A DNA stretch of 40,430 nucleotides from Kribbia dieselivorans NBRC 106261 (GTDB lineage Bacteria; Actinomycetota; Actinomycetes; Actinomycetales; Dermatophilaceae): positions 1 through 40,430 of the forward strand of contig NZ_BCRE01000047.1 of assembly GCF_001552435.1 (NCBI RefSeq). Direction: 5' to 3'. This document shows positions 20,967 to 38,201 of this stretch, in pieces. How positions within the stretch are numbered: the stretch's first letter is position 1; each line of letters begins with the position of its first letter. The notes beneath the pieces were generated by a model. It was given only the letters and a program-made list of their open reading frames with translations, was not told the origin of the DNA and made no database searches. The position numbers and the translations under genes are program-made.

Positions 20967-21677
20967 ATGACCAACACACTCGACCACACGCAGTCCGGCT
21001 ACTCTCGGATCGCCGACGATGCTCCGCGCCAGCCGCGTGGACGGGCCTGGGCCCTGACCGGGGCGGTCGCCGGGGTCGCTGGTGCCATCGGCATCATCGC
21101 CTCGATGAGCATCGACGCGGTGTATTCCCCGAGTTCTCAGGGCGACCCCGCCGCGATCGTGACGCGACTGGGCGAGCTCACGACGAACATGCTCGTCTTC
21201 CACACGGCCATGATGGTTGCGACCGTGCTGCTGATTGTGTTCGCGGCCGGGTTGCGACACCGGCTGTCCACGTCCTCAGCCCCGGGCAGCCTCTTGCCCG
21301 ACGTCGCGGCCGGCGGTCTCATGCTGACCGCCGTGGCCGGACTCATGGGCACCGGCCTGAACACCGAGTTCATCTTTGCGGTCGCCGACCCGGGCACCGC
21401 GCTCGTTCCCGAGGCCGCGGTGATGTACGGCCACTGGGTCGGCACCATCCCGTGGCTCTGGGTCGGTTCCGGGATCACCGGCGTGGCCCTGGCCTTCGCC
21501 GGGCTGCGGCAGGGCGCCGTTCCCCTGTGGCTCGGGTGGGTCGGAGCCGTGCTCGGTGGGCTGACCCTGCTGTTCGGCCTCTCCCCGCTGCAGTACATGG
21601 CCGGGTTCACCGGTCCGGTGCTGGTGGCCGTCGTCGGGCTGGGATTCCTGTTCGGTGACCGCGTCGTCCGTGCCTGA
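20967..21677 (+). CDS. Multi-spanning membrane protein of unknown function
   Basis: 236 residues with about six hydrophobic segments (first near 28-48, GAVAGVAGAIGIIASMSI; last near 205-230, GPVLVAVVGLGFLFGDRVV). It is not firmly recognised; the layout resembles DUF4386-like four/six-TM proteins. ATG at 20967 with AAGGAC upstream; an upstream in-frame ATG gives a non-protein-like extension. It lies 55 bp before the sensor kinase in the same direction, so it may be co-transcribed and related to the signal sensed, but nothing in the sequence proves this. Confidence 0.72.
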   Translation: MTNTLDHTQSGYSRIADDAPRQPRGRAWALTGAVAGVAGAIGIIASMSIDAVYSPSSQGDPAAIVTRLGELTTNMLVFHTAMMVATVLLIVFAAGLRHRLSTSSAPGSLLPDVAAGGLMLTAVAGLMGTGLNTEFIFAVADPGTALVPEAAVMYGHWVGTIPWLWVGSGITGVALAFAGLRQGAVPLWLGWVGAVLGGLTLLFGLSPLQYMAGFTGPVLVAVVGLGFLFGDRVVRA

Positions 21678-21732
21678 GCGACCTTCCTGCGCGAGGTGCC
21701 CACCCAGATCCGGCAATCGGAGGGACAACCAG

Positions 21733-23718
21733 ATGTCCGAGTCCTACGCTGCCCCGAGGATGGACACGACACTGACGCCGCACCCGGCCACCGGGCTGCC
21801 CCGAGCGGCGACCGCCATCGCGGTCGCCGCTTGGGCGTTGGCGGTCGTCGCGACCGGTTTGGTCGTGACCGCTCGCGCACCGATCGACCTCGGCACGTGG
21901 TTCTTCGCCGTGGACGTCACGGTGGCCGCGGTGTACGGGACGGTCGCCGCGGTGACGTTGTCGCGACGCCGACACCCCGTGCCGTGGCTGCTCGCGCTGG
22001 CCGCGATCGGTGGCGGGCTGGCTGCCCTGGGCTACGCCTGGATGGTGTTCACGAGTCGCCACCCCGGGCTGCCGGAACTGCCGCTCGTCGTCCAGTTGCA
22101 GAACACCGCGTGGGTGCCGGGCACCCTCGCGCTGTTCCTCGTCGTGCCGTGGCTCGTCCGCGACCACGTGCTCCGCTGGGAGGCCATCGGGTTGGTCGCC
22201 GGCGTCGGACTCGTGGTCGCCATGGAGGCGCAGCGCATCCTCCTCGGCGGCCGGTGGGATCCGCAGTTGTACATCGCCGTCTGTGTCTTCGGTGTCATCA
22301 CGGCCGCCGTCGTCGCCTGGCGCCACCGCTACGGTCCGGTCGAGGAACGCAACGGGCTGGCCTGGCTGGCCCTCGGCACGCTGATCCTCGCCGTGTCCTT
22401 CCTGCCGCTGGCCGTGCCACCCGGTGTCTGGTCCGTGCCGATCGCGACCATGCCCGCCCTGCATCTCGCCTCGCAGGCGGTATTCCCCGCGGCCGTTCTC
22501 GTGGCGGTTCTGCGCGGGCGCATGTGGGGGCTGGGCCTGGTCGTCAGCCGGGCCACCCTCTCGGCGCTGCTGGCGGTGGGTCTGCTCGTGCTGTACCTCG
22601 TCGTGACCCTGGTGCTGGCCACGATCCTGCCCGGCCAGGGCGCGGCTCACCTCATCGGCGCCGGCATCGTCGTCATCGCCGTTCAGCCGGCACGTATCTG
22701 GCTCGGTGGGCGCGTGCACCGACTCGTCTACGGGGCCGCGGCCAGCGACCCATCGGGGCTGGTGCAGCGGTGGGGTAACCGCATGGGCGGGGCCGGCAGC
22801 GCCGACGACCTGTTCACCGGGCTGGCCCGCGATCTGGGGACGGGATTGCGGCTCGAATCGGTCACGCTCCGCGCCCCCAAAGTGGCCCCGGCCCGTTGGG
22901 GCGAACCCACCTCGACACCGACCTCGGTGCCGTTGATCCACCGCGGCGAACGCGTCGGCACCCTCGAGGTCACCGCCCCCGCCGGTGAGTCCCTGGGATC
23001 GCGTGGGGAACGGATGCTCGCCGAGTTCGGCGCGGTCGCGGCGGCGGCGTTGGCGGTGCGGCAGCAGGCCCGCCAGGTCGAGCAGGCTCGCGCCAGACTG
23101 ACGCGGGCACGACTCGAGGAGCGTCGTGTCATCCGCCGGGAGATCCACGATGGGCTCGGGCCGTCGCTGGCCGGACTCCGACTCGGTCTTCAGGGCGCAC
23201 GGAACCTGCTTGGTCGCGACGATGCCACCGCCGGCGAACTCCTGACCGCCTTGCAGACCCAACTGGACGATCTGGTTCAGCAGACCCGCGAACTGTCCCA
23301 CCACCTGCTACCGCCGGTGCTCGACGAGCTCGGCCTCGCCGCAGCCCTGCATGAACTGGCCGCGCGGCACGACGAGACGGAGCTGACCGTCGAGGTCGTC
23401 ACCGAGCTTCCGCCGGAACTGGACGCAGCTCTCGCGGCGGCGCTCTACGGCATCGCCAGCGAGGCGTTGACGAACGTCCACCGCCACAGCGGCGCGCGGC
23501 ATGCCTGGATCGAGGGTCGTCTGGAAGCCGGCGGCAGCCTCGTATTGGAGGTGCGCGACGATGGTTGCGGCATCCCGTCCACCGCGGTGCCCGGTGTCGG
23601 CACCCGCTCGATGCGTGAGCGGGCCCAGGAGCAGCGTGGCACCCTGACCGTCTCGCCAAGGGCCGGTGGCGGCACGGTGGTGCGTGCCGTGATCCCGGAC
23701 AGGAGCAGCGATGAGTGA
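21733..23718 (+). CDS. Sensor histidine kinase, NarL/DesK-type (HisKA_3)
   Basis: 661 residues. The N-terminal half (about 30-340) has roughly eight to ten membrane segments and no large extracellular domain, so the sensor is membrane-embedded. A linker with GAF-like character (about 350-440) follows, then a coiled stretch and the dimerisation box RRVIRREIHDGLGPSLAGLR with phospho-acceptor H472. The ATPase domain has SEALTNVHRHSGA (N box), VLEVRDDGCGIPS and GTRSMRERAQEQRGTL. ATG at 21733 follows CGGAGGGAC. The stop overlaps the response-regulator gene by 8 bp; they form one system. The stimulus is unknown. Confidence 0.93.
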   Translation: MSESYAAPRMDTTLTPHPATGLPRAATAIAVAAWALAVVATGLVVTARAPIDLGTWFFAVDVTVAAVYGTVAAVTLSRRRHPVPWLLALAAIGGGLAALGYAWMVFTSRHPGLPELPLVVQLQNTAWVPGTLALFLVVPWLVRDHVLRWEAIGLVAGVGLVVAMEAQRILLGGRWDPQLYIAVCVFGVITAAVVAWRHRYGPVEERNGLAWLALGTLILAVSFLPLAVPPGVWSVPIATMPALHLASQAVFPAAVLVAVLRGRMWGLGLVVSRATLSALLAVGLLVLYLVVTLVLATILPGQGAAHLIGAGIVVIAVQPARIWLGGRVHRLVYGAAASDPSGLVQRWGNRMGGAGSADDLFTGLARDLGTGLRLESVTLRAPKVAPARWGEPTSTPTSVPLIHRGERVGTLEVTAPAGESLGSRGERMLAEFGAVAAAALAVRQQARQVEQARARLTRARLEERRVIRREIHDGLGPSLAGLRLGLQGARNLLGRDDATAGELLTALQTQLDDLVQQTRELSHHLLPPVLDELGLAAALHELAARHDETELTVEVVTELPPELDAALAAALYGIASEALTNVHRHSGARHAWIEGRLEAGGSLVLEVRDDGCGIPSTAVPGVGTRSMRERAQEQRGTLTVSPRAGGGTVVRAVIPDRSSDE

Positions 23719-24391
23719 GGATTCCAGCGTCACCCGCGCCACGGCGATCCGGGTGGTCGTGGTCGACGATCACCCTGTCTTTCGGCTGGGCATGGCCGCG
23801 CTGCTCGGCTCCCTGCCCGGTGTAGAGGTGGTCGGTCAGGCGGCTGATGAGGCAGAAGCAGTCGCGGTCGTGGCCGGTGCCGCCGTCGACGTCGTGCTCA
23901 TGGACCTCCATCTCGGCGAGGACTCGGGCATCGAGGCGACCCGCCGCATCGTCCACGACGATCCCGCGGTACGCGTGCTCGTCATCACGATGCAGGAGGA
24001 TGACGAGTCGGTGGTCGCGGCCTTGCGGGCGGGTGCTCGCGGCTACTTGCTGAAAGGGGCGTCGCCGGAGGAGATCGAGCGGGCCTTGCGCGCGGTGGCC
24101 AATGACGAGGTCATTCTCGGGCCCAAGATCGCGGCCCGGGCGCTGTCGACGGTCACGGCGGGTCGGAGCGCCGTTCGCGTCCCATTCCCCGATCTCACCG
24201 CTCGTGAGCGTGAAGTGCTCGACCTCGTGGCGCGCGGCTACGACAACCCGACCATCGCGCGGCGGCTCGTGCTCAGCCCGAAGACGGTGCGCAATGTCGT
24301 GGCCAACGTCCTGACCAAGATCGGGGCTGCGGACCGCTCGGCTGCGATCGTCGCGGCTCGCGACCAGGGCCTCGGCTGTGCCCCGGAGTGA
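23711..24391 (+). CDS. NarL/LuxR-family response regulator
   Basis: 226 residues. The receiver domain (about 12-130) has the acidic pair near VVVDDHPVFRLGMAALLGSL, the phospho-accepting D65 in VVLMDLHLGEDSG and the lysine in GYLLKGASPEEIERAL. The C-terminal LuxR-type HTH is at about 160-222 (PDLTAREREVLDLVARGYDN, LVLSPKTVRNVVANVLTKIG). It is the partner of the kinase with which it overlaps and acts as a DNA-binding dimer when phosphorylated. No repeat that would serve as its binding site is evident before the operon. Confidence 0.95.
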   Translation: MSEDSSVTRATAIRVVVVDDHPVFRLGMAALLGSLPGVEVVGQAADEAEAVAVVAGAAVDVVLMDLHLGEDSGIEATRRIVHDDPAVRVLVITMQEDDESVVAALRAGARGYLLKGASPEEIERALRAVANDEVILGPKIAARALSTVTAGRSAVRVPFPDLTAREREVLDLVARGYDNPTIARRLVLSPKTVRNVVANVLTKIGAADRSAAIVAARDQGLGCAPE

Positions 24392-25748: not shown

Positions 25749-26066
25749 TCAGCGGTCGAGCCGATGCTGCCAATAGCCGGGTTTCCGGCGTTCATGCGCG
25801 TACGCGAGGATGACGAAATCCGACTCGGTGAGGTAATAGAGCAGACGGTAGGGGAACACCCCGACCGCCATGCTCCGCACGGTCGGAGTGTCCGCCCAGC
25901 CGGCGAACACGGGCGCTGAGCGGGGCCAATCGCGTATGCGGGCTATCGCGTCGTCAATCGCGTCGTAGAAACTGTCGCCCAACCCTGGCTCTCGGTCGTC
26001 GTACCAGAACGCGGCTTCGCGGAGTTCATCGCGAGCTTCAGGGTGCTCTCGCTTTTCCAGCCTCAC
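25749..26066 (-). CDS. ParE/RelE-superfamily toxin
   Basis: 105 residues. It has the compact ParE layout: HPEARDELREAAFWYDDREP, GLGDSFYDAIDDAIARIRDWP, then VRSMAVGVFPYRLLYYL, FVILAYAHERRKPGYWQHR. The C-terminal strand and HERRKPGYW are typical of plasmid-stabilisation/ParE proteins; ParE poisons gyrase and RelE-like members cut mRNA, and which applies here is not known. A GTG start overlaps the antitoxin stop (GTGA, 26063-26066), giving the standard antitoxin-first coupled pair. The 106-bp stretch 25643-25748 downstream holds nothing I can identify. Confidence 0.9.
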   Translation of the reverse strand: MRLEKREHPEARDELREAAFWYDDREPGLGDSFYDAIDDAIARIRDWPRSAPVFAGWADTPTVRSMAVGVFPYRLLYYLTESDFVILAYAHERRKPGYWQHRLDR

Positions 26067-26317
26067 GCGCGGCGAGCTGCCAACTCGGCTCGCAACTGCG
26101 CGTGGGACTCATCAACATCCAGCAACTCGGACTTGCCGCTTTCGATGTCGGCGATGCGACGGCGAAGTTCGGCCCGCCATGACGCATCGACCTCAGCCTG
26201 ATCGGTACTCGCATCGCCCGCGTCGAGGCTCCGCAGGCCGCGATGGATCACCGCAGCGCGATCCTGCTCTCCGAGAGCGAGGAGCGCCTGCTCGACCTCC
26301 GAAACGGTCATGGACAT
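26063..26317 (-). CDS. Addiction-module antitoxin (TIGR02574-like)
   Basis: 84 residues from the ATG at 26317; an ATG at 26311 would remove two. MTVSEVEQALLALGEQDRAA and the later VDASWRAELRRRIADIESGK match the 'addiction module component' antitoxins that pair with ParE/RelE toxins. The C-terminal half should wrap the toxin and the N-terminal half should bind DNA. TACACT lies 6 nt before the ATG, so the mRNA is probably leaderless, which supports 26317 as the start. Confidence 0.88.
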   Translation of the reverse strand: MSMTVSEVEQALLALGEQDRAAVIHRGLRSLDAGDASTDQAEVDASWRAELRRRIADIESGKSELLDVDESHAQLRAELAARRA

Positions 26318-26329
26318 GACGTCAGTGTA
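26318..26329 (-). promoter_or_regulatory. Leaderless promoter (-10 box) of the ParE-type module
   Basis: On the minus strand TACACT-GACGTC-ATG places a TANNNT box exactly 6 nt from the antitoxin start with no ribosome site, the same spacing as at arsR and vapB. GACGTC is itself a palindrome and could be part of an autoregulatory operator. Confidence 0.5.
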
Positions 26330-26398
26330 GGCCGACGCACGGACACAAGCCGTGAGTTCCTGGCCCGCCGCCACGAGGGACGGTGCCTCGCTGCGTGA

Positions 26399-27600: not shown

Positions 27601-28797
27601 ATGCGCCACCTCATCATCGGAGCCGGGATCGTGGGCCTGGCGATCGCCCGTGAACTGCAGCGCACCCGCCCCGGCAGCGAGGTCGTCGTGCTCGACAAGG
27701 AGCCGCGCGTCGCCGCCCACCAGACCGGCCACAACTCCGGGGTCGTCCACGCCGGCGTCTACTACCCACCCGGCTCGCTCAAGGCGACGCTGTGCCGCCG
27801 CGGCGTCGGACTCCTGCGCGACTACACCGCCCAGAAGAACCTGCCCTACGACGAGGTCGGCAAGGTCGTCGTCGCCGTCGACGCGCCGGACCAGGACCGC
27901 CTGGTCGAGGTCCACCGCCGCGCCGTGGCCAACGGCGTCCCGGGCGCGCGACTCATTGGCCCATCCGAGCTCCGTGAGCTTGAGCCCCACGTCGTCGGCG
28001 TCGCGGCGCTGCACTCACCGACCACGGCGATCGTCGACTTCGTCGCGGTGACCCAGGCGCTCGCCGACGATGTGACCACCGGCGGGGGACAGGTCCTGCT
28101 GGCCCACGAGGTCGTCGGTGTGCGCCGCACCCACGACCGTGTCGAGGCGCTGGTCGACACACCCGACGAACAGATCCGGATCGGCGCAGATCGCCTCATC
28201 ATCGCCGGCGGTCTGTACGTCGATCGGCTGGCCCGGATGGTCGGCGGCTCGCCGGACCCGCAGATCGTCCCGTTCCGCGGGGAGTACCACCTGCTCGCCC
28301 CGAACCGCGCCCACCTCGTGCGCGGACTCGTCTACCCCGTGCCGGACCCGCGCTACCCCTTCCTCGGCGTGCACCTGACCCGCCGCATCGACGGCACCGT
28401 CGACGTCGGCCCGAACGCGGTGTTCGCCACCGCTCGCGAGGGCTACACGCACTGGGACGTCAACGCGCGCGACCTCGGCGAGGCGATCGCGTGGCCGGGC
28501 ATGCGATCGCTGGCCCGGCAGCATTGGCGCACGGGGATCGCCGAAATGGCCGGATCGCTGTCCCCTCGCCGATTCGCCGACGCGGCCCGGCGCTATGTTC
28601 CCGAGCTGTCCGACGACGACCTGCGCCCGGGCAGCGCGGGCGTGCGCGCGCAGGCCGTCGGGCGCGACGGGAGTCTCGTGGACGACTTCGTCATCGAACA
28701 GATCGGTCCGGTCACGGCGATCCGGAATGCCCCGTCACCGGCCGCGACGTCGAGCCTGGCGATCGCCGAACACGTGGTGGCGCACCTGCCCGCGTGA
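27601..28797 (+). CDS. lhgO: L-2-hydroxyglutarate oxidase
   Basis: 398 residues, the normal size. The N-terminal FAD site is HLIIGAGIVGLAIARELQRT, followed by HQTGHNSGVVHAGVYYPPGS, the signature of LhgO/L2HGDH proteins. Later PFRGEYHLL, VYPVPDPRYPFLGVHLTRR and GPNAVFATAREGY also match. It oxidises L-2-hydroxyglutarate to 2-oxoglutarate with FAD, passing electrons to oxygen or quinone at the membrane. The start immediately follows the 19-bp repeats; there is no normal ribosome site, so the repeats form or flank the leader. The last 86 bp overlap the convergent cydB-like gene. Confidence 0.92.
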   Translation: MRHLIIGAGIVGLAIARELQRTRPGSEVVVLDKEPRVAAHQTGHNSGVVHAGVYYPPGSLKATLCRRGVGLLRDYTAQKNLPYDEVGKVVVAVDAPDQDRLVEVHRRAVANGVPGARLIGPSELRELEPHVVGVAALHSPTTAIVDFVAVTQALADDVTTGGGQVLLAHEVVGVRRTHDRVEALVDTPDEQIRIGADRLIIAGGLYVDRLARMVGGSPDPQIVPFRGEYHLLAPNRAHLVRGLVYPVPDPRYPFLGVHLTRRIDGTVDVGPNAVFATAREGYTHWDVNARDLGEAIAWPGMRSLARQHWRTGIAEMAGSLSPRRFADAARRYVPELSDDDLRPGSAGVRAQAVGRDGSLVDDFVIEQIGPVTAIRNAPSPAATSSLAIAEHVVAHLPA

Positions 28798-29314
28798 GTC
28801 GCCACCCGGCGATCTGTAGCGCGCCGACGCAGGCGGTGCACACCGGAGCGACGATGGCCAGGACTCCTGCCGTGGTGGCAGACATCTGGCCCGGGTCGGG
28901 TGGGGTGGCGGCCCCGGCGGCGGTCGCGACGACCAGCGCGTCGATCAGCGCCAGGGCTTGGGCGCCGGCCCCGACGGCCGCCACCGCACGCCACGGCCGG
29001 TCGACGCCGCGCAGCGCCAGCTGCCACAGACCCCAATCCCGCAGCATCCACGCGAGCCCGAACACCGTCAGGGGCAGCCACGCGGCCGCGAACACCCCAT
29101 GCACCGTGGCCGGCAGGGCCGCGTGGACCAGGCCGAGCAGGGCGACGACCCACACCTCGGAGAGCAGGAAGGTCCAGCCGACGGGGGTGGTGACCCGGTT
29201 CGGCAGTGCCCCGGCGACCACCGATCGCGTGATGGTTCGGCCCTCGAGCCACGTCGCTCCGAGGGTCAGCACGACAACGGTCGCCAGCACGATGCCGGAG
29301 CTCAGAGCGGCCAT
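28712..29314 (-). CDS. Shortened CydB-like subunit of a bd-type oxidase
   Basis: 200 residues with about five membrane segments; CydB is normally about 330-380 with eight or nine. The stretch from GATWLEGRT to TPVGWTFLLSEVWVVALLGL and HAALPATVHGVFAAAWLPL aligns by eye with the first part of CydB (the region around its conserved W..NQVWLI segment). Nothing corresponds to the second half. The last 28 residues are polar and lie antisense to lhgO, so the stop is shared space rather than an obvious frameshift. It overlaps cydA by 13 bp. It should sit in the cytoplasmic membrane as partner of the CydA-like subunit. Confidence 0.65.
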   Translation of the reverse strand: MAALSSGIVLATVVVLTLGATWLEGRTITRSVVAGALPNRVTTPVGWTFLLSEVWVVALLGLVHAALPATVHGVFAAAWLPLTVFGLAWMLRDWGLWQLALRGVDRPWRAVAAVGAGAQALALIDALVVATAAGAATPPDPGQMSATTAGVLAIVAPVCTACVGALQIAGWRLTRAGAPPRVRRSPGSTSRPVTGHSGSP

Positions 29315-30528
29315 GTGCCCACCTCCGAGGCCCGCGGTGCAGCGACCATCGGTGGCCCCGACACCACCGCCGCCGGCCGCCCCAACTCGCGCACCATCAG
29401 TCGCCACGCGAACACCACGACGGCGGCGCCGAGCGCGACGAAGGCGGTGCTCGTCACCACGAGGGCCGGCGCGCTCGTCGCGGACAGTGCCTCGGTCACC
29501 CGAACCTCACCGACGATGAACCACGGCTGGCGAGCCTCCTCGCGGTAGACCCAACCCAGGATCGTCGTCGCCAGCGGGAACCACGGCGCGATCACCAGGA
29601 GCCAGAGCACCGGCGGCACCCGAGGCAGCGCCCGCCCCAGCAGCAGGGGCACCAACACGACCCAGGCCAGCAGCAGGAACAGCAGCCCGTTGAGCATCAT
29701 CAACGCCAGGGCAATGCCCTCGGGCCCGTTGCGGGTGAACGCCTGATCACGCACGACGGCGAACTGGGCGAAACCCGTGCCGAGGGTCCAGACACTGGCG
29801 ATGGCGACGAGCCACACGCCGATCCGCAGCAACACCGTGGCCGGCGCCGGCGACCCCGCCGACGGTCGCAGCGTGAGCCGCGCTCCCGCCGCCAGCAGCC
29901 ACGACCCGGCGACCAGACCCGCCGCGCCGAGGATGTGCATGAGCGGCACCACCGCGGCCGGTTGGGTGAGGACGACCCAGAAGTCGGTGAACCGCGCTCC
30001 GGCCGTGCCGATGCCCTCGACACCGATCGGGTGGTGGAGGAACGCGTTGGCCGCGACCACCACCCAGGCCGAGATCCACGCGGTCAGGGCCACACCCCAC
30101 AGCATGACTGCGCGCCACCCCTCGCCCACTCGCCCGGGCGTGAGCAGGTACAGGCCCAACAGTGTCGACTCGAGGAAGAACGCGCCGAGGGTCTCCACGG
30201 CCAGCGCCGTCGCGATCGGGTCGTACAGCGCGGACGCGTGCCCGGACCAGTTCAGGCCCATCTGCACCTCCATGACGATGCCGGTGATGATCCCGGCTCC
30301 GTAGTTGATGAGGTACAGGCGGATGACCCGATCGCGGGCCTCGACCAGGGCAGCCGAAGGGCTGAGGCCGCCAGGTCTGCGGGTGCGACGCGCGCGTCGC
30401 CACACCGCGGTCTGCAAGGCCGCGGCGATCGGCGCCAGGCCCAACGTCGTGGCGACCACGACGAAGTGCAGGCTCGCCGTGAGCGCGAACTCCCAGCGCG
30501 CCAAGGTCAGCACGACATCTCCAGTCAT
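29302..30528 (-). CDS. CydA-like bd oxidase subunit I lacking the Q-loop
   Basis: 408 residues against about 450-520 for ordinary CydA. Conserved functional residues are seen: H21 (LTASLHFVVV, haem b595 ligand position), E87 (GIVMEVQMGLNWS), E112 and E120 (VETLGAFFLEST), H198 (PLMHILGAAGLVAG) and M277/M278 (ALALMMLNGLLFLL), the haem b558 ligand positions. The C-terminal ARQPWFIVGEV corresponds to GRQPW. Between H198 and M277 there are only about 78 residues where E. coli has about 206, so the periplasmic quinol-binding loop is essentially absent. The upstream extension of the frame is not protein-like; the ATG at 30528 gives the natural N-terminus MTGDVVLTLARWEFAL. It is followed by the cydB-like gene and preceded by the prpE terminator. 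Confidence 0.8.
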   Translation of the reverse strand: MTGDVVLTLARWEFALTASLHFVVVATTLGLAPIAAALQTAVWRRARRTRRPGGLSPSAALVEARDRVIRLYLINYGAGIITGIVMEVQMGLNWSGHASALYDPIATALAVETLGAFFLESTLLGLYLLTPGRVGEGWRAVMLWGVALTAWISAWVVVAANAFLHHPIGVEGIGTAGARFTDFWVVLTQPAAVVPLMHILGAAGLVAGSWLLAAGARLTLRPSAGSPAPATVLLRIGVWLVAIASVWTLGTGFAQFAVVRDQAFTRNGPEGIALALMMLNGLLFLLLAWVVLVPLLLGRALPRVPPVLWLLVIAPWFPLATTILGWVYREEARQPWFIVGEVRVTEALSATSAPALVVTSTAFVALGAAVVVFAWRLMVRELGRPAAVVSGPPMVAAPRASEVGTWPL

Positions 30529-30552
30529 GCCGTTGACGCTAGGCAAACGCGA

Positions 30553-30592
30553 GGTGGGGGCACATCGGGCAGATCCCCGACGTGCCCCCACC
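30553..30592 (-). terminator. Hairpin terminator after prpE
   Basis: GGTGGGGGCAC (30553-30563) pairs with GTGCCCCCACC (30582-30592). After one mismatch the stem continues as TCGGG/CCCGA around a 6-nt loop. It lies 23 bp past the prpE stop on the minus strand and 24 bp before the cydA start, so it separates the two transcription units. The trailing GTTTGCC is only weakly T-rich. Confidence 0.75.
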
Positions 30593-30615
30593 GGGCCCCT
30601 GAAAGCCCTCGGGGA

Positions 30616-32517
30616 TCAGCCCATCTTGTGGCCGCGCAGCACCGGGCTCAGGTCGTCGAGCACCGAGGCGTCCTCGATGGTGCCCGGCACGGTGAACGGC
30701 TTGCCGTCGGCGATCTCGCGCATCGTCTTGCGCAGGATCTTGCCCGAACGCGTCTTCGGCAGGGCCGTGACGATGTCAACGCGCTTGAGCGAGGCGACCG
30801 CGCCAACCTCGTTGCGCACGCGCTGCACGAGCTCCTTGGTGATGCGCTCACCGTCGGCGAACGGATCCACGCCGGCCTTGAGCACGACGAACCCGCGCGG
30901 CTCCTGACCCTTGAAGTCGTCGTGCACGCCGATGACGCAGCACTCGGCCACGTCCGGGTGGCCGGCGAGCGCCGCCTCGATCGCGCCGGTCGAGAGGCGG
31001 TGACCGGCGACGTTGAGGACGTCGTCGGTGCGGCCCATGACGTAGATGTAGCCGTCCTCGTCGATCATCCCGCCGTCGCCGGTGAGGTAGTAGCCCTCGA
31101 ACGCCGACAGGTACGACTCGACGTAACGCTCGTCGTCGCCCCACAGGGTCGGCAACGTGCCCGGCGGCATCGGCAGCTTGATGACGATGGCACCCTCGTT
31201 GCCGGGGTCGCACTGGTTGCCGACCTCGTCGACGACCTGGACGTCGAACCCGGGGACGGCCACCGACGGCGATCCGGCCTTGATCGGCATGGGCTCCAGG
31301 CCGCGCAGGTTCGCCGCGATCGGCCAGCCGGTCTCGGTCTGCCACCAGTTGTCGACGACCGGGATCCCCAGGATCGAGCTGGCCCACTCGTAGGTGTCGG
31401 GATCGAGGCGCTCGCCGGCGAGGAAGAGGTTGCGCAGCGAGGAGACGTCGTGCTCCGCGAGCAGCTCGGCGTTCGCGTCCTCCTTCTTGATCGCGCGGAA
31501 GGCCGTCGGTGCGGTGAACAGGGCGACCGCCTGATACTCGTCGACGATGCGCCAGAACGCCCCGGCGTCCGGAGTCCCGACGGGCTTGCCCTCGTAGAGC
31601 ACCGTCGTCGCGCCGGTGAGCAGGGGCGCGTACACGATGTACGAGTGGCCGACGACCCAGCCCACGTCGGAGGCGGTGAACATGACCTCACCGGGCTTGA
31701 CGTCGTAGATGTTCTCCATCGACCAGCGCAGCGCGACGGCGTAGCCACCGTTGTCGCGCACGATGCCCTTGGGTCGGCCGGTCGTGCCGGAGGTGTAGAG
31801 CACGTACAGCGGGTCGGTCGCGGCGACCTCGACACAGTCGGCCGGCTGCGAGGCGGCGACGAACTCGGCCCAGTCGAGGTCGCGGCCCTGCGTGAGCTCG
31901 GCGGGTGCCTGCTCGCGTTGGAGGATCACGACCTTCTCCGGCGTGTGGGAGGAGCGTTCGATCCCGGCGTCGAGGAACGGCTTGTACTCGATGACGCGGG
32001 TGGGTTCGATGCCGCACGACGCCGACAGGATGACCTTGGGGGCGGCGTCCTCGATGCGCGCGGAGAGTTCGGCCGGGGCGAAGCCGCCGAACACGACCGA
32101 GTGCACGGCACCGATGCGGGCGCAGGCGAGCATGCCGATGACCGCCTCGGGGATCATCGGCATGTAGATGACGACGCGGTCGCCCTTGGTCACGCCGAGG
32201 TCGGTCAGGCCGCCGGCCAGCCGGGCGACCTGGTCCTGCAGTTCGGCGTAGGTGATCCGGCGCTTGGTGCCGGTGACGGGGGAGTCGTAGAGGATCGCGT
32301 CCTGGTCGCCGCGGCCGTCGCGCACGTGCCGGTCGACGGCGTTGAAGCAGGTGTTCAGCGTGCCGTCGGTGAACCACCGGTAGAACGGGACGTGGCTGTC
32401 GTCGAGCACCGTCGTCGGAGGCGTGATCCACTCGATCGCGTGGGCGGCGTTGCCCCAGAAGGTGGTCGGGTCGGTGATGGACTGCTCGTACTGGTCGCGA
32501 TAAACCCCGTTGTTCAT
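30616..32517 (-). CDS. prpE: Propionyl-CoA / short-chain acyl-CoA synthetase
   Basis: 633 residues, the size of PrpE/ACSS3-type ligases. Motifs include SVVFGGFAPAELSARIEDA, VLYTSGTTGRPKGIVRDNGG (loop lysine K250), VDNWWQTETGWPIAANLRGL, YLTGDGGMIDEDGYIYVMGR and the catalytic, acetylation-prone K593 in TRSGKILRKTMREIADG. The 'VRDNGGYAVAL' wording and 'GWPIAAN' favour propionyl-CoA over acetyl-CoA synthetase. It activates propionate (or acetate) with ATP and CoA. The start overlaps the histidine-kinase stop (ATGA). The only GGAGG is 1 nt from the ATG, so initiation depends on coupling or an alternative start. It is the third gene of a response regulator / kinase / ligase operon. Confidence 0.9.
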   Translation of the reverse strand: MNNGVYRDQYEQSITDPTTFWGNAAHAIEWITPPTTVLDDSHVPFYRWFTDGTLNTCFNAVDRHVRDGRGDQDAILYDSPVTGTKRRITYAELQDQVARLAGGLTDLGVTKGDRVVIYMPMIPEAVIGMLACARIGAVHSVVFGGFAPAELSARIEDAAPKVILSASCGIEPTRVIEYKPFLDAGIERSSHTPEKVVILQREQAPAELTQGRDLDWAEFVAASQPADCVEVAATDPLYVLYTSGTTGRPKGIVRDNGGYAVALRWSMENIYDVKPGEVMFTASDVGWVVGHSYIVYAPLLTGATTVLYEGKPVGTPDAGAFWRIVDEYQAVALFTAPTAFRAIKKEDANAELLAEHDVSSLRNLFLAGERLDPDTYEWASSILGIPVVDNWWQTETGWPIAANLRGLEPMPIKAGSPSVAVPGFDVQVVDEVGNQCDPGNEGAIVIKLPMPPGTLPTLWGDDERYVESYLSAFEGYYLTGDGGMIDEDGYIYVMGRTDDVLNVAGHRLSTGAIEAALAGHPDVAECCVIGVHDDFKGQEPRGFVVLKAGVDPFADGERITKELVQRVRNEVGAVASLKRVDIVTALPKTRSGKILRKTMREIADGKPFTVPGTIEDASVLDDLSPVLRGHKMG

Positions 32518-34637: not shown

Positions 34638-35831
34638 TTACCTGTGCTGCAGCGACGCGATCACGTGTTGCAGGGTGGCGATCGAGTGGGCGCTGTCGGC
34701 CTGGGTCGGGGTGGGCGCCCGCAGGCTGGTCAGCACACCGTCGATGGCGACGTCCATGGTGTGCCAGTCGTGGGGCGACTTCGGCTTGAGCCCGGCCTCG
34801 GAGCTGTCCCAGGCGACCTCGAGGTCCTTGACCCGGGTCGTGGCGCCGGCCAGGTCACCGGCCTTCACCTTGGTGCCCAGGTCGTTGACGATCGTGCTGT
34901 ACGAGGTCAGGTCGCCCAGAGGGCCCTGCGCCGCGCTCGCGCTCGCGGCCACCGAGGCGGTCGGAGCCGCGACGGCGGTCGCACCGACGACGGCCGCGGC
35001 GGCCAGGGCCGCCCACGAGAAGTCCCGCGCCCGACCGCCGTGGGGGCCCGAACCCTTCTCCGCCACGCCGTACTGGTTGACCAGCCACTGCTCGCGAACG
35101 ACGAGCACGACGATGACGGCGAAGAAGATCAGGCTCGTCAGCTGCGCTCCGAGGCCGAAGCCACCGAGGGACCGCTCCTGCGTGAGGAGGTCACCGATCG
35201 ACGCGCCCAGCGGGCGGGTGAGGATGTAGGCGACCCAGAAGGTGAGCACCAGGCTCGCGCCGGCCTTGCGGGCCACCCAGCACGCGAGGATGAGCCCGCC
35301 GAAGATCAGGGCGCCGTTGCGGAAGCCGAGCCCGAGCGCCTCGGTGGCGAGGTCGCCGGCGGCCGTGCCCAGCGCGAACGTCGTCAGGATCGCGCCCCAG
35401 TAGAACGCCTCCCGGCGCGGGGTGTTGATCGACGTGATCGCCAGGGTCCGCTCCTCGCGGTACCAGAGCGTGAAGACGAGGGCGAGGATGACGCTGAAGA
35501 CGCCGGTGCTGACCCAGAGGCTGATGCCCAGGGTGTCGGTGAGGAAGTCGGTGATCTGCGTGCCGACGATGCTCACGCACACGACGGTGAACCAATAGAT
35601 GACTGGCGTGACCTGGCGCGTGCGGAACTGCAACGTCAGCGCCACGGCCAGCACGCCGAGCATGACGAGGTCCGTCACCTGCTGGCCCAGGCCCACGTTG
35701 ACGGTCAGGTAGTCGGCGAAGGTCTCACCGATCGTCGTGGAAAGGATCTTGATGACCCAGAAGGTTGCCGTGATCGCCGGCACCTTGTTGAGCCACGCAC
35801 GAGTCGTGGGGGTGGCGATGGCTGTGCTCAT
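34638..35831 (-). CDS. DUF347/COG4705-type membrane protein with extracytoplasmic C-terminal domain
   Basis: 397 residues. Residues 17-265 hold four related membrane-hairpin repeats (VPAITATFWVIKILSTTIGE; WFTVVCVSIVGTQITDFLTD; FYWGAILTTFALGTAAGDLA; FWVAYILTRPLGASIGDLLT), each with a TT/T-x-x-G-[E/x]-x-x-D/G-D pattern typical of DUF347 repeats. A further hydrophobic segment near 280-300 leads to a soluble tail of about 95 residues (VKDLEVAWDSSEAGLKPKSP, then ADSAHSIATLQHVIASLQHR), probably helical and outside the membrane. The family is uncharacterised; a transport role is a guess. AGGAGG precedes the ATG at 35831. The PmrA-like direct repeat upstream suggests control by the adjacent two-component system. 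Confidence 0.8.
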   Translation of the reverse strand: MSTAIATPTTRAWLNKVPAITATFWVIKILSTTIGETFADYLTVNVGLGQQVTDLVMLGVLAVALTLQFRTRQVTPVIYWFTVVCVSIVGTQITDFLTDTLGISLWVSTGVFSVILALVFTLWYREERTLAITSINTPRREAFYWGAILTTFALGTAAGDLATEALGLGFRNGALIFGGLILACWVARKAGASLVLTFWVAYILTRPLGASIGDLLTQERSLGGFGLGAQLTSLIFFAVIVVLVVREQWLVNQYGVAEKGSGPHGGRARDFSWAALAAAAVVGATAVAAPTASVAASASAAQGPLGDLTSYSTIVNDLGTKVKAGDLAGATTRVKDLEVAWDSSEAGLKPKSPHDWHTMDVAIDGVLTSLRAPTPTQADSAHSIATLQHVIASLQHR

Positions 35832-35849
35832 TCTGCCTCCTGTCGGGGT

Positions 35850-35878
35850 GCGTACCGGTGCGGCGAGCGTCGGTACGC
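35850..35878. repeat. Inverted repeat in the DUF347 leader
   Basis: GCGTACCG (35850-35857) and CGGTACGC (35871-35878) are perfect inverted copies with a 13-nt loop, between the start codon (35831) and the direct repeat at 35899. It could be a 5' UTR hairpin or a second protein site. Confidence 0.4.
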
Positions 35879-35898
35879 GAGCAGAAGACCACGGCTGA

Positions 35899-35915
35899 CT
35901 TAGCCCAGGCTTAGC
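35899..35915 (-). promoter_or_regulatory. PmrA/QseB-like direct-repeat operator
   Basis: CTTAGC-CCAGG-CTTAGC: two identical hexamers separated by 5 nt (11-bp period), about 70 bp upstream of the DUF347 start and just past the stop of the alcohol dehydrogenase. PmrA-type regulators bind CTTAAT-N5-CTTAAT-like repeats, so this is the expected form of the site for the regulator encoded at 33875-34537. Confidence 0.6.
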
Positions 35916-35922
35916 GTGCCCC

Positions 35923-37092
35923 TCACGCGTGCAACGGGTCTCGGCGGAGGACGAGTTTGGTCGTCTCAGCGGCATAGGCCGCCGGAGCGTCGTCGAAGTC
36001 GGCCAGCGTCGTGGTGACCCGCTCGGCGGGGAAGTCGTGCGTGGCCATCCAGTCGAGCAGTTCGGGCAGTACGGCGCGCGGGTGGGTGACGCCCAGGTGC
36101 AGCGTGATGTCGGTGGCGTACATGTGCATCAGCGGCACCGGCGTGGTCGTGCCCACGTAGTAGCCCACGGCCGTGCACTCGCCGCCCGGCGCGGTGCAGC
36201 GGATCACGTGGCGCAGCCCCGCGCCCGAACTCGTGGCCTCGACGACGATGTCGTACCCCTCGCGCACCGGTCGCGGGTAGCCCAGTCCGGGCAGCGACAC
36301 CCGGGTCGAGCGCACGACCTGGACGCGGGCGCCGAACGACTCGGCGATGGCGGCTCGGTCGGCGTCGGTGTCGATGTAGTCGACCTGGCTGGCGCCGTGG
36401 GCCACGGCCAACCCGGCGGCGTAGAGGGCGATGCTCTTCGCTCCTCCGGCCATGATGAGCACGCGACCGCCGGGTCGGGCACGCAGGCCCGGCACGACCG
36501 CGCGCCACCCGTCGGCGAGGTTGTCCGAGGCGGCGGCGACACGCAGTGGGTCGAGCCCGTCGGGGAGCTTGACGAGCATGTGGTCGGCGTGCGGCACGCG
36601 AAGGAGGTCGGTGACCATGCCGCCATACGGGCCGCTCGCCGCTCCGAAACCGTAGGCGGAGAGGTAACGCAGACCGTCAGGGGCGGCCGGGTCGCGGCGG
36701 GTGGTCAGGCACTTCGACGTCAGGCCGCGCCGGCAGTTCTGGCAGGTGCCGCACGAGACCGACCACGGCACGACGACCTGGTCGCCGATGGCCAGGTGGG
36801 TCACGTCGGAGCCCAGTGCGATGACCTCGGCGATCGCCTCGTGACCGATGGGGGCCGGGCCCTGGAACGGGGGGTGCCCGGCGATGTGGCCGACGGAGGG
36901 GTCGATGACGCCGGTGCGCAGGCCCGCGGCCAGCATCGTGGTCACGCCCTTCCAGTGGATGGGGAGGGTGTCGCCGTCACAGCGGCTGACGACGAAGGGG
37001 CGCACGATCGCGTCGGTCGGGCCGTGGAGCTCGGGCTCGGGGCGGTCGAACCACTCCAGCCGGCCGGTGCTTACGTAGTTGAGTTCGCGCAT
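35923..37092 (-). CDS. Zinc-dependent alcohol dehydrogenase (MDR superfamily)
   Basis: 389 residues. The catalytic zinc cysteine is in VVSRCDGDTL; GHEAIAEVIALGSDV supplies the His/Glu pair; the structural-zinc cysteines are in SCGTCQNCRRGLTSKC. A Rossmann fold follows (GGRVLIMAGGAKSIALYAAG, YIDTDADRAAIAESFGARV), although the usual GxGxxG reads GGAKSI. It oxidises or reduces an alcohol/aldehyde with NAD(P); the substrate is unknown. Relatives with the long insertion 'WKGVTTMLAAGLRTG' are found among glutathione-independent and threonine-type dehydrogenases. It is transcribed alone, divergent from vapB. Confidence 0.88.
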   Translation of the reverse strand: MRELNYVSTGRLEWFDRPEPELHGPTDAIVRPFVVSRCDGDTLPIHWKGVTTMLAAGLRTGVIDPSVGHIAGHPPFQGPAPIGHEAIAEVIALGSDVTHLAIGDQVVVPWSVSCGTCQNCRRGLTSKCLTTRRDPAAPDGLRYLSAYGFGAASGPYGGMVTDLLRVPHADHMLVKLPDGLDPLRVAAASDNLADGWRAVVPGLRARPGGRVLIMAGGAKSIALYAAGLAVAHGASQVDYIDTDADRAAIAESFGARVQVVRSTRVSLPGLGYPRPVREGYDIVVEATSSGAGLRHVIRCTAPGGECTAVGYYVGTTTPVPLMHMYATDITLHLGVTHPRAVLPELLDWMATHDFPAERVTTTLADFDDAPAAYAAETTKLVLRRDPLHA

Positions 37093-38113: not shown

Positions 38114-38201
38114 TGGCGGAGGATGGGGGATTTGAACCCCCGAGGGTTTTATCCCAACACGATTTCCAATCGTGCGCACTAGGCCACTATGCGAATCCTC
38201 C
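38114..38201 (-). tRNA. tRNA-Ser(GGA)
   Basis: The minus strand reads GGAGGAT...ATCCTCC for the acceptor stem, with discriminator G and an encoded CCA (38114-38116). The anticodon arm CACGATTGGAAATCGTG shows anticodon GGA (serine, codon UCC). A long variable arm, typical of tRNA-Ser, and the T arm GGGGGTTCAAATCCCCC follow. In actinobacteria this tRNA commonly neighbours the SRP RNA gene and dnaX. Confidence 0.97.

Follow-up and report, generated by a model that had tools for sequence, protein, structure and literature searches.

A bd-type gene pair without a Q-loop

The 40,430-nucleotide contig NZ_BCRE01000047.1 of Kribbia dieselivorans NBRC 106261, referred to here as the window, carries on its reverse strand two adjacent genes related to cydA and cydB of cytochrome bd. 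The first encodes a CydA-like protein (subunit I) that keeps the haem ligand positions and lacks the quinol-binding Q-loop, and the second encodes a reduced relative of CydB (subunit II). The genes and the positions discussed below are as follows.

29305-30528, reverse strand: open frame for the CydA-like subunit I, 408 amino acids (ATG at 30528, stop at 29302-29304)
28715-29314, reverse strand: open frame for the CydB-like subunit II, 200 amino acids (ATG at 29314, stop at 28712-28714)
30466-30468, reverse strand: H21, aligned with E. coli H19, an axial haem ligand position
29935-29937, reverse strand: H198, aligned with E. coli H186, a haem b558 ligand position
29725-29754, reverse strand: residues 259-268, a short linker between transmembrane helices 6 and 7 at the place of the Q-loop (helices 228-258 and 269-297 in the AlphaFold2 model; a gap in the alignment)
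29698-29700, reverse strand: M277, aligned with E. coli M393, a haem b558 ligand position
29539-29544, reverse strand: R329-E330, in which E330 is aligned with E. coli E445, the haem b595 ligand position, and R329 is the arginine shared by all Q-loop-less rows

The start of the cydB-like gene overlaps the end of the cydA-like gene, and its 3' end overlaps a convergent gene (27601-28797, forward strand) by 86 bases. The guanine-plus-cytosine (GC) content at third codon positions is of the coding type in both frames (0.91 and 0.86). Subunit I matches PF01654 with an E-value of 1.7e-58 (198.6 bits, against a curated cut-off of 26.2), and its nearest solved chains in a phmmer search are qOR1-type CydA proteins from actinobacteria. 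Its identity to the normal CydA of the same genome is 27.9% over 383 columns. An AlphaFold2 model of the single chain, with the window protein and 35 relatives as input, has a mean predicted local distance difference test (pLDDT) score of 79.6 and a predicted template modelling (pTM) score of 0.81. The model matches ten solved CydA entries with VIA-align Z scores of 34.6-39.7; the next family, alternative complex III, reaches 18.4.

Residues were mapped onto CydA of E. coli K-12 in an alignment of 141 rows. H21, E87, E112, E120, H198 and M277, which the initial annotation of this DNA had listed as conserved, all align with E. coli counterparts (H19, E74, E99, E107, H186 and M393, respectively). 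E330, which was absent from that list, is kept as well (E. coli E445). Carrying over the E. coli assignment, we take H198 and M277 to be ligands of haem b558, E330 to be the ligand of haem b595, and H21 to belong to haem d, with E112 and E120 nearby.

The segment between the two b558 ligand positions is drastically shortened. H198 and M277 are 79 residues apart, in agreement with the initial annotation (about 78 against about 206); the E. coli protein has 207 and the normal CydA of this genome 169. The Q-loop stretch (E. coli residues 240-386) has 21 residues instead of 146. No residue of the canonical Q-loop quinol site (K252 and E257; in the long form Y243 and R298) is kept, and in the alignment nothing in the window protein corresponds to E. 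coli K252, E257, E280, R298 or R391; for R391, 97 of the 103 Q-loop-less rows are gapped, which is a matter of alignment choice. Thus, the loop has been lost together with its lysine and glutamate, as had been proposed, and relocation of these residues to another part of the sequence was not seen in the 141-row alignment. A lysine is aligned with K252 in 84 of the 103 Q-loop-less rows, including all 80 from Streptosporangiaceae, and is missing from the window protein. These observations support the view that the pair belongs to the bd family of haem proteins and lacks the canonical site for quinol.

The relationship of subunit II to CydB is clear when its relatives are included in the sequence profile and weak when it is taken alone. 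Pfam gave no family match at E-values up to 1, and the window protein by itself matches the canonical CydB profile weakly (HHalign probability 57%, E-value 1e-4). A profile of the window protein and 31 relatives matches the same profile at 99.9% (E-value 7e-38). Matches to a PTS profile and to an aldolase look like chance and were set aside. The AlphaFold2 model of subunit II is weak (pTM 0.54), and a fold search with it gave no match below an E-value of 0.001. Hydropathy indicates five helices in the window protein, seven in a relative of 255 amino acids, nine in another relative, and eight in E. coli CydB. The partner is 242-276 amino acids long in 80 loci from Streptosporangiaceae and reaches 363 in other relatives. 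The initial annotation had called the window protein a half-length CydB. The 200 residues stand; the reduction is mostly a trait of the family, and only the further truncation is peculiar to this copy. No match to the partner was found in a plasmid collection, and a plasmid origin was rejected.

Relatives of the pair and their operons

The alignment contains 103 actinobacterial rows without a Q-loop, the window included, and 38 full-length rows. (G, C and L numbers denote genomes, contigs and loci in our collection.) L037 (in two pieces), L013 and L065 were left out; L044 and L029 are cut at the ends of their loci. The H186-M393 spacing falls into two classes with no intermediates, 76-119 in the 103 Q-loop-less rows and 139-207 in the 38 full-length rows. 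Likewise, the Q-loop stretch has at most 57 residues in the former and at least 78 in the latter. Despite this loss, the ligand positions are conserved throughout the Q-loop-less rows: H186, M393 and E445 in 103 of 103 and, with gaps set aside, H19 in 101 of 101 and both E99 and E107 in 102 of 102. Two further residues distinguish these rows. An arginine directly precedes E445 in all 103, where the 38 others have T, S, G or A, and a threonine follows E99 in all 102 ungapped rows, where the 38 others have A, G or V. We defined the clade by an H186-M393 spacing below 125, threonine at position 100, arginine at position 444, and grouping as a single clade; each of these features is found in the window protein.

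Trees made from samples of 31 and 22 of the 103 rows gave the same grouping. In a 58-row tree with the Q-loop columns removed, the 31 Q-loop-less rows share one side of a branch (support 99/99.8); canonical CydA is next to them, and six rows of a third type, one of which is closest to the qOR-2 type chain 9r2g, stand separately. In a second tree of 43 rows, in which the two signature columns were masked as well, the 22 Q-loop-less rows group with support of 98/91. Judged by sequence, the Q-loop-less rows thus form an actinobacterial clade of cytochrome bd paralogues beside qOR1. Placing the window protein among the canonical rows makes the tree 6.7 log units worse (approximately unbiased test, p 0.045), and its membership of the clade, on a long branch, is therefore likely but not certain.

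Scanning a contig collection with the partner alignment, we obtained 527 matching stretches, in which one locus may be counted twice, and used the best 80 loci. All 80 come from Streptosporangiaceae and are thus not independent of one another. In all of them, an open reading frame for a CydA-like protein of 383-451 amino acids ends 2-56 nucleotides before the partner, and cydD follows on the same strand within 2.5 kb. cydC is also present in all 72 loci with 4.5 kb of room. A PadR-type gene lies divergently upstream in 79 of the 80, and none has an upstream kinase of the histidine kinase-response regulator group described next.

The other relatives are more varied. Among 24 further loci, cydD lies downstream in seven. 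Another 11 lack a cydD match in their flanks and are immediately preceded, on the same strand, by genes for a histidine kinase and a response regulator. The remainder comprise one cut locus with a PadR gene only (L172), one with a kinase and regulator further upstream (L057), one with both downstream on the other strand (L061), two with neither (L049 and L176), and one without a subunit I match (L060). At L060 (G137:C6), the partner-like gene follows a kinase-regulator pair and a gene resembling that of a large transporter, and it has no adjacent CydA match; the Q-loop-less cydA of that genome lies elsewhere (L174).

A search of the class with the window partner matched 19 of 394 genomes. We examined 17 of these, setting aside the window's own genome and G140, whose hit is a full-length class pair (L045). 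All 17 hold both a Q-loop-less and a full-length cydA, which indicates that the Q-loop-less pair is a paralogue and not a replacement. K. dieselivorans conforms to this: the second, normal set of genes whose presence the initial annotation had proposed to check is there as a cydA-cydB-cydD-cydC run (C87:212-6070). Two Q-loop-less cydA copies occur in G329, G373, G240 and G206, and three in G457 (loci L161, L168, L170, L172, L175 and L176). At L037 (G240:C1, about 2979348-2980468), a Q-loop-less cydA is split over two frames in a one-contig genome, by a frameshift or an error. A search of the phylum with subunit I matched 124 of 396 genomes, short and full-length forms unsorted, and the best identity besides the window protein itself is 43% among the matches listed. 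One match (G211, L190), outside the 141-row alignment, is another short-loop form with the arginine. Many related soil bacteria carry the same kind of enzyme, and the Q-loop-less pair is thus neither an error nor a one-off.

Proposed function and alternative explanations

We lean toward the view that the pair is an auxiliary bd-type oxygen reductase beside CydABDC, into which electrons would enter without a Q-loop. Subunit I would fold as CydA and bind three haems at the usual positions, and the CydB relative would serve as a reduced scaffold. The complex would most likely reduce oxygen, or remove peroxide or nitric oxide, as a membrane haem enzyme beside the normal CydABDC. The ligand positions, the CydA fold and the cydDC genes of the relatives together support a haem-loaded, bd-type enzyme, and those cydDC genes favour an assembled bd cytochrome. 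In K. dieselivorans, the cydDC genes on C87 could serve the window pair. The menaquinone of the E. coli enzyme is located beneath the Q-loop, at 6.7 Å from the iron of haem b558 (PMC13189123). Without this lid, haem b558 would lie toward the extracytoplasmic side behind a short linker only and be more open to the outside, and quinol binding would have to be altered or replaced. The electrons would then be supplied either by menaquinol bound at an exposed site with no lid or by a different donor.

Several observations weigh against this proposal. A conserved ligand position is no proof of a haem, and the enzyme role is read from sequence. M. smegmatis likewise carries a putative second bd, AppCB, in addition to its normal enzyme; the study of AppCB reported that, under the conditions used, evidence for oxidase function was not compelling (PMC9498996). 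Unlike the window protein, AppCB is full-length by its residue numbering (His197-Met417 in that paper). Thus, AppCB is not a direct test of the window pair, and we rejected it as the same kind of protein. The other adverse points concern the window copy itself and bear equally on the main rival explanation, that this copy is under relaxed selection, a transferred and orphaned pair drifting towards loss. We regard this as possible rather than probable.

In its family, no copy other than the window's is convincing: the partner matched six of 186 genomes, the other five only at E-values of 3e-4 to 9.4e-4, and four of these five matches adjoin normal CydA genes. Within the order, four of 396 genomes matched, the window's included; one of the other three matches is a normal CydB, and the short flanks of the remaining two contain nothing that matches CydA. 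The branch of the window protein is very long in both trees (2.06-2.43). Subunit I departs from its relatives in 28 of the 94 columns in which they are conserved to 97% or more. The partner, the shortest among the relatives, keeps 20 of 56 conserved columns (part of the loss is its missing end), and its gene ends inside the convergent gene. No cydDC genes stand beside the pair, and a scan of the window gave no match for cydD, PadR or the kinase. The pair therefore has neither the cydDC and divergent PadR genes nor the upstream kinase and regulator of its relatives, a lack shared by two of the 24 other loci. However, both frames are open, with the coding-type third positions given above, and neither a ligand position nor either signature residue has been lost. 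Moreover, subunit I retains 66 of the 94 conserved columns compared with 75 of 282 variable ones, which argues for constraint on this subunit.

If the pair is an oxygen reductase, as we favour, the place of electron entry becomes of interest. Entry into actinobacterial cytochrome bd is disputed between site 1 at the Q-loop and a pocket at haem b595 (PMC8413341, PMC11786768, PMC9846854). For the M. tuberculosis enzyme, a second entry site has been proposed at a menaquinone-binding pocket close to haem b595, involving the Arg-Trp pair R8-W9 of TM1 and M397 of TM9 (PMC8413341, PMC9846854), and the menaquinone at this site 2 was later argued to be structural (PMC11786768). A natural Q-loop-less paralogue with all ligand positions and, in Streptosporangiaceae, cydDC could test entry without engineering of the loop. 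We speculate that the clade might be a natural re-wiring of bd, in which site 1 is gone and menaquinol or another donor enters elsewhere, with a candidate place beside haem b595, and we consider this rather improbable. The window protein keeps R11-W12, and E331 stands one place after the b595 ligand, where M397 stands by our own reading. Entry at haem b595 is testable, because the clade arginine adjoins the b595 ligand and the window protein keeps the tryptophan. Against it, the menaquinone of site 2 may be structural, as noted, none of the 100 other ungapped Q-loop-less rows has the tryptophan, and the b558 ligands are invariant in all 103. The latter would speak for haem b558 still carrying electrons.

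The loss of the quinol site would also fit a non-respiratory haem protein built on the bd core, that is, a sensor of oxygen, nitric oxide or redox state, or a haem store. The kinase and response regulator directly upstream in 11 of the 24 other loci could point to sensing; they fit regulation of the operon equally well. We think such a role quite unlikely, given that cydD accompanies all 80 Streptosporangiaceae relatives, that the b558 ligands, which are needed to transfer electrons but not to bind gases, are present in every Q-loop-less row, and that neither window protein has an extra Pfam domain.

Members of the bd superfamily that are described as working without the quinol route are already known (PMC10839748, PMC12342949, PMC13189123). 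The OR-N families (Nitrospira, Nitrospinota) are described as lacking that route and as likely taking electrons from cytochrome c instead of quinol (PMC10839748), and the canonical quinol-site residues are likewise absent from the window protein. That the pair is a cytochrome c-fed reductase of the OR-N type is nevertheless very unlikely. By description, which is the basis of our comparison, OR-N1 and OR-N2 are thought to pair two CydA-type subunits as CydAA' (PMC10839748), whereas the window partner is CydB-like. In addition, the nearest solved chains are qOR1-type, and the clade stands apart from the qOR2-like rows. The only two PF13442 cytochrome c matches in the genome (PF00034 was not searched) adjoin each other on C53, the contig that also carries its single COX1. 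For the uncharacterised OR-N enzymes, the clade gives a counterpart whose partner is of the CydB type.

Finally, an artefact of sequencing, assembly or binning is hardly credible: although the assembly is a draft of 310 contigs and no second convincing pair is seen in the family, the in-frame loss of the Q-loop is common to 102 other rows, and the other frames downstream showed no remnant of CydB. A sequencing error whose correction would restore the Q-loop or CydB, as the initial annotation had allowed for, was therefore rejected. Composition also fits the host genome, and we rejected an origin of the contig in another organism. Pieces of 10 kb have a GC content of 0.69-0.71 and a tetranucleotide correlation of 0.93-0.96 with their own genome, compared with 0.94-0.97 for its other contigs and 0.81-0.89 for other genomes, although the pair alone (1.8 kb) gives 0.82.

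The pair resembles the canonical qOR1 bd enzymes (M. tuberculosis, 7nkz and 9fka; M. smegmatis, 7d5i; C. glutamicum, 8b4o) in CydA fold and ligand positions and, in many relatives, in having cydDC adjoining. Unlike them, the window protein and its clade have no Q-loop, an arginine before E445, a threonine after E99, and a reduced CydB. The qOR-2 type bd of M. smegmatis (9r2g) is a further actinobacterial type, which the subunit I model matches with a Z score of 35.4. One qOR2-like row, L165, the only one matched to 9r2g, is closest to that chain; in contrast to the window protein, it keeps the Q-loop (spacing 139), and such rows fall outside the clade. In a partial literature search of titles and abstracts, we found no description of a Q-loop-less CydA with a short CydB. 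The CydB-partnered clade beside qOR1 may thus be a variant of the known superfamily that this search did not meet, and Murali 2021 may describe it; the classification into qOR and OR-N types used here is taken second-hand from other papers.

Neighbouring genes and other features

Two features lie directly upstream of the pair.

30616-32517, reverse strand: acetyl-CoA synthetase-like gene (PF00501, PF16177, PF13193), 87 nucleotides upstream of the cydA-like gene
30553-30592, reverse strand: hairpin with a 17-bp stem and no T tract, between these two genes

The hairpin region (30526-30622) has a predicted fold of -57.1 kcal/mol (z -3.36), and a terminator scan gave no terminator-like site at the hairpin.

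About 5 kb from the pair, a histidine kinase with a weak GAF match and a LuxR-type response regulator are encoded at 21655-24391 on the forward strand. We rejected this pair as a cognate of the kinase and regulator found upstream of some relatives: in a scan of the window with the relatives' neighbour genes, the regulator gave one weak match (102 bits), the kinase gave none, and the domain make-up differs. A reverse-strand gene with four DUF347 repeats (34638-35975) adjoins another pair, a HisKA kinase and a Trans_reg_C regulator. Two small overlapping genes on the reverse strand (25749-26374) resemble, by eye, a toxin-antitoxin pair of the ParE/RelE type, and a tRNA-Ser gene (gga) lies at 38114-38201 on the same strand.

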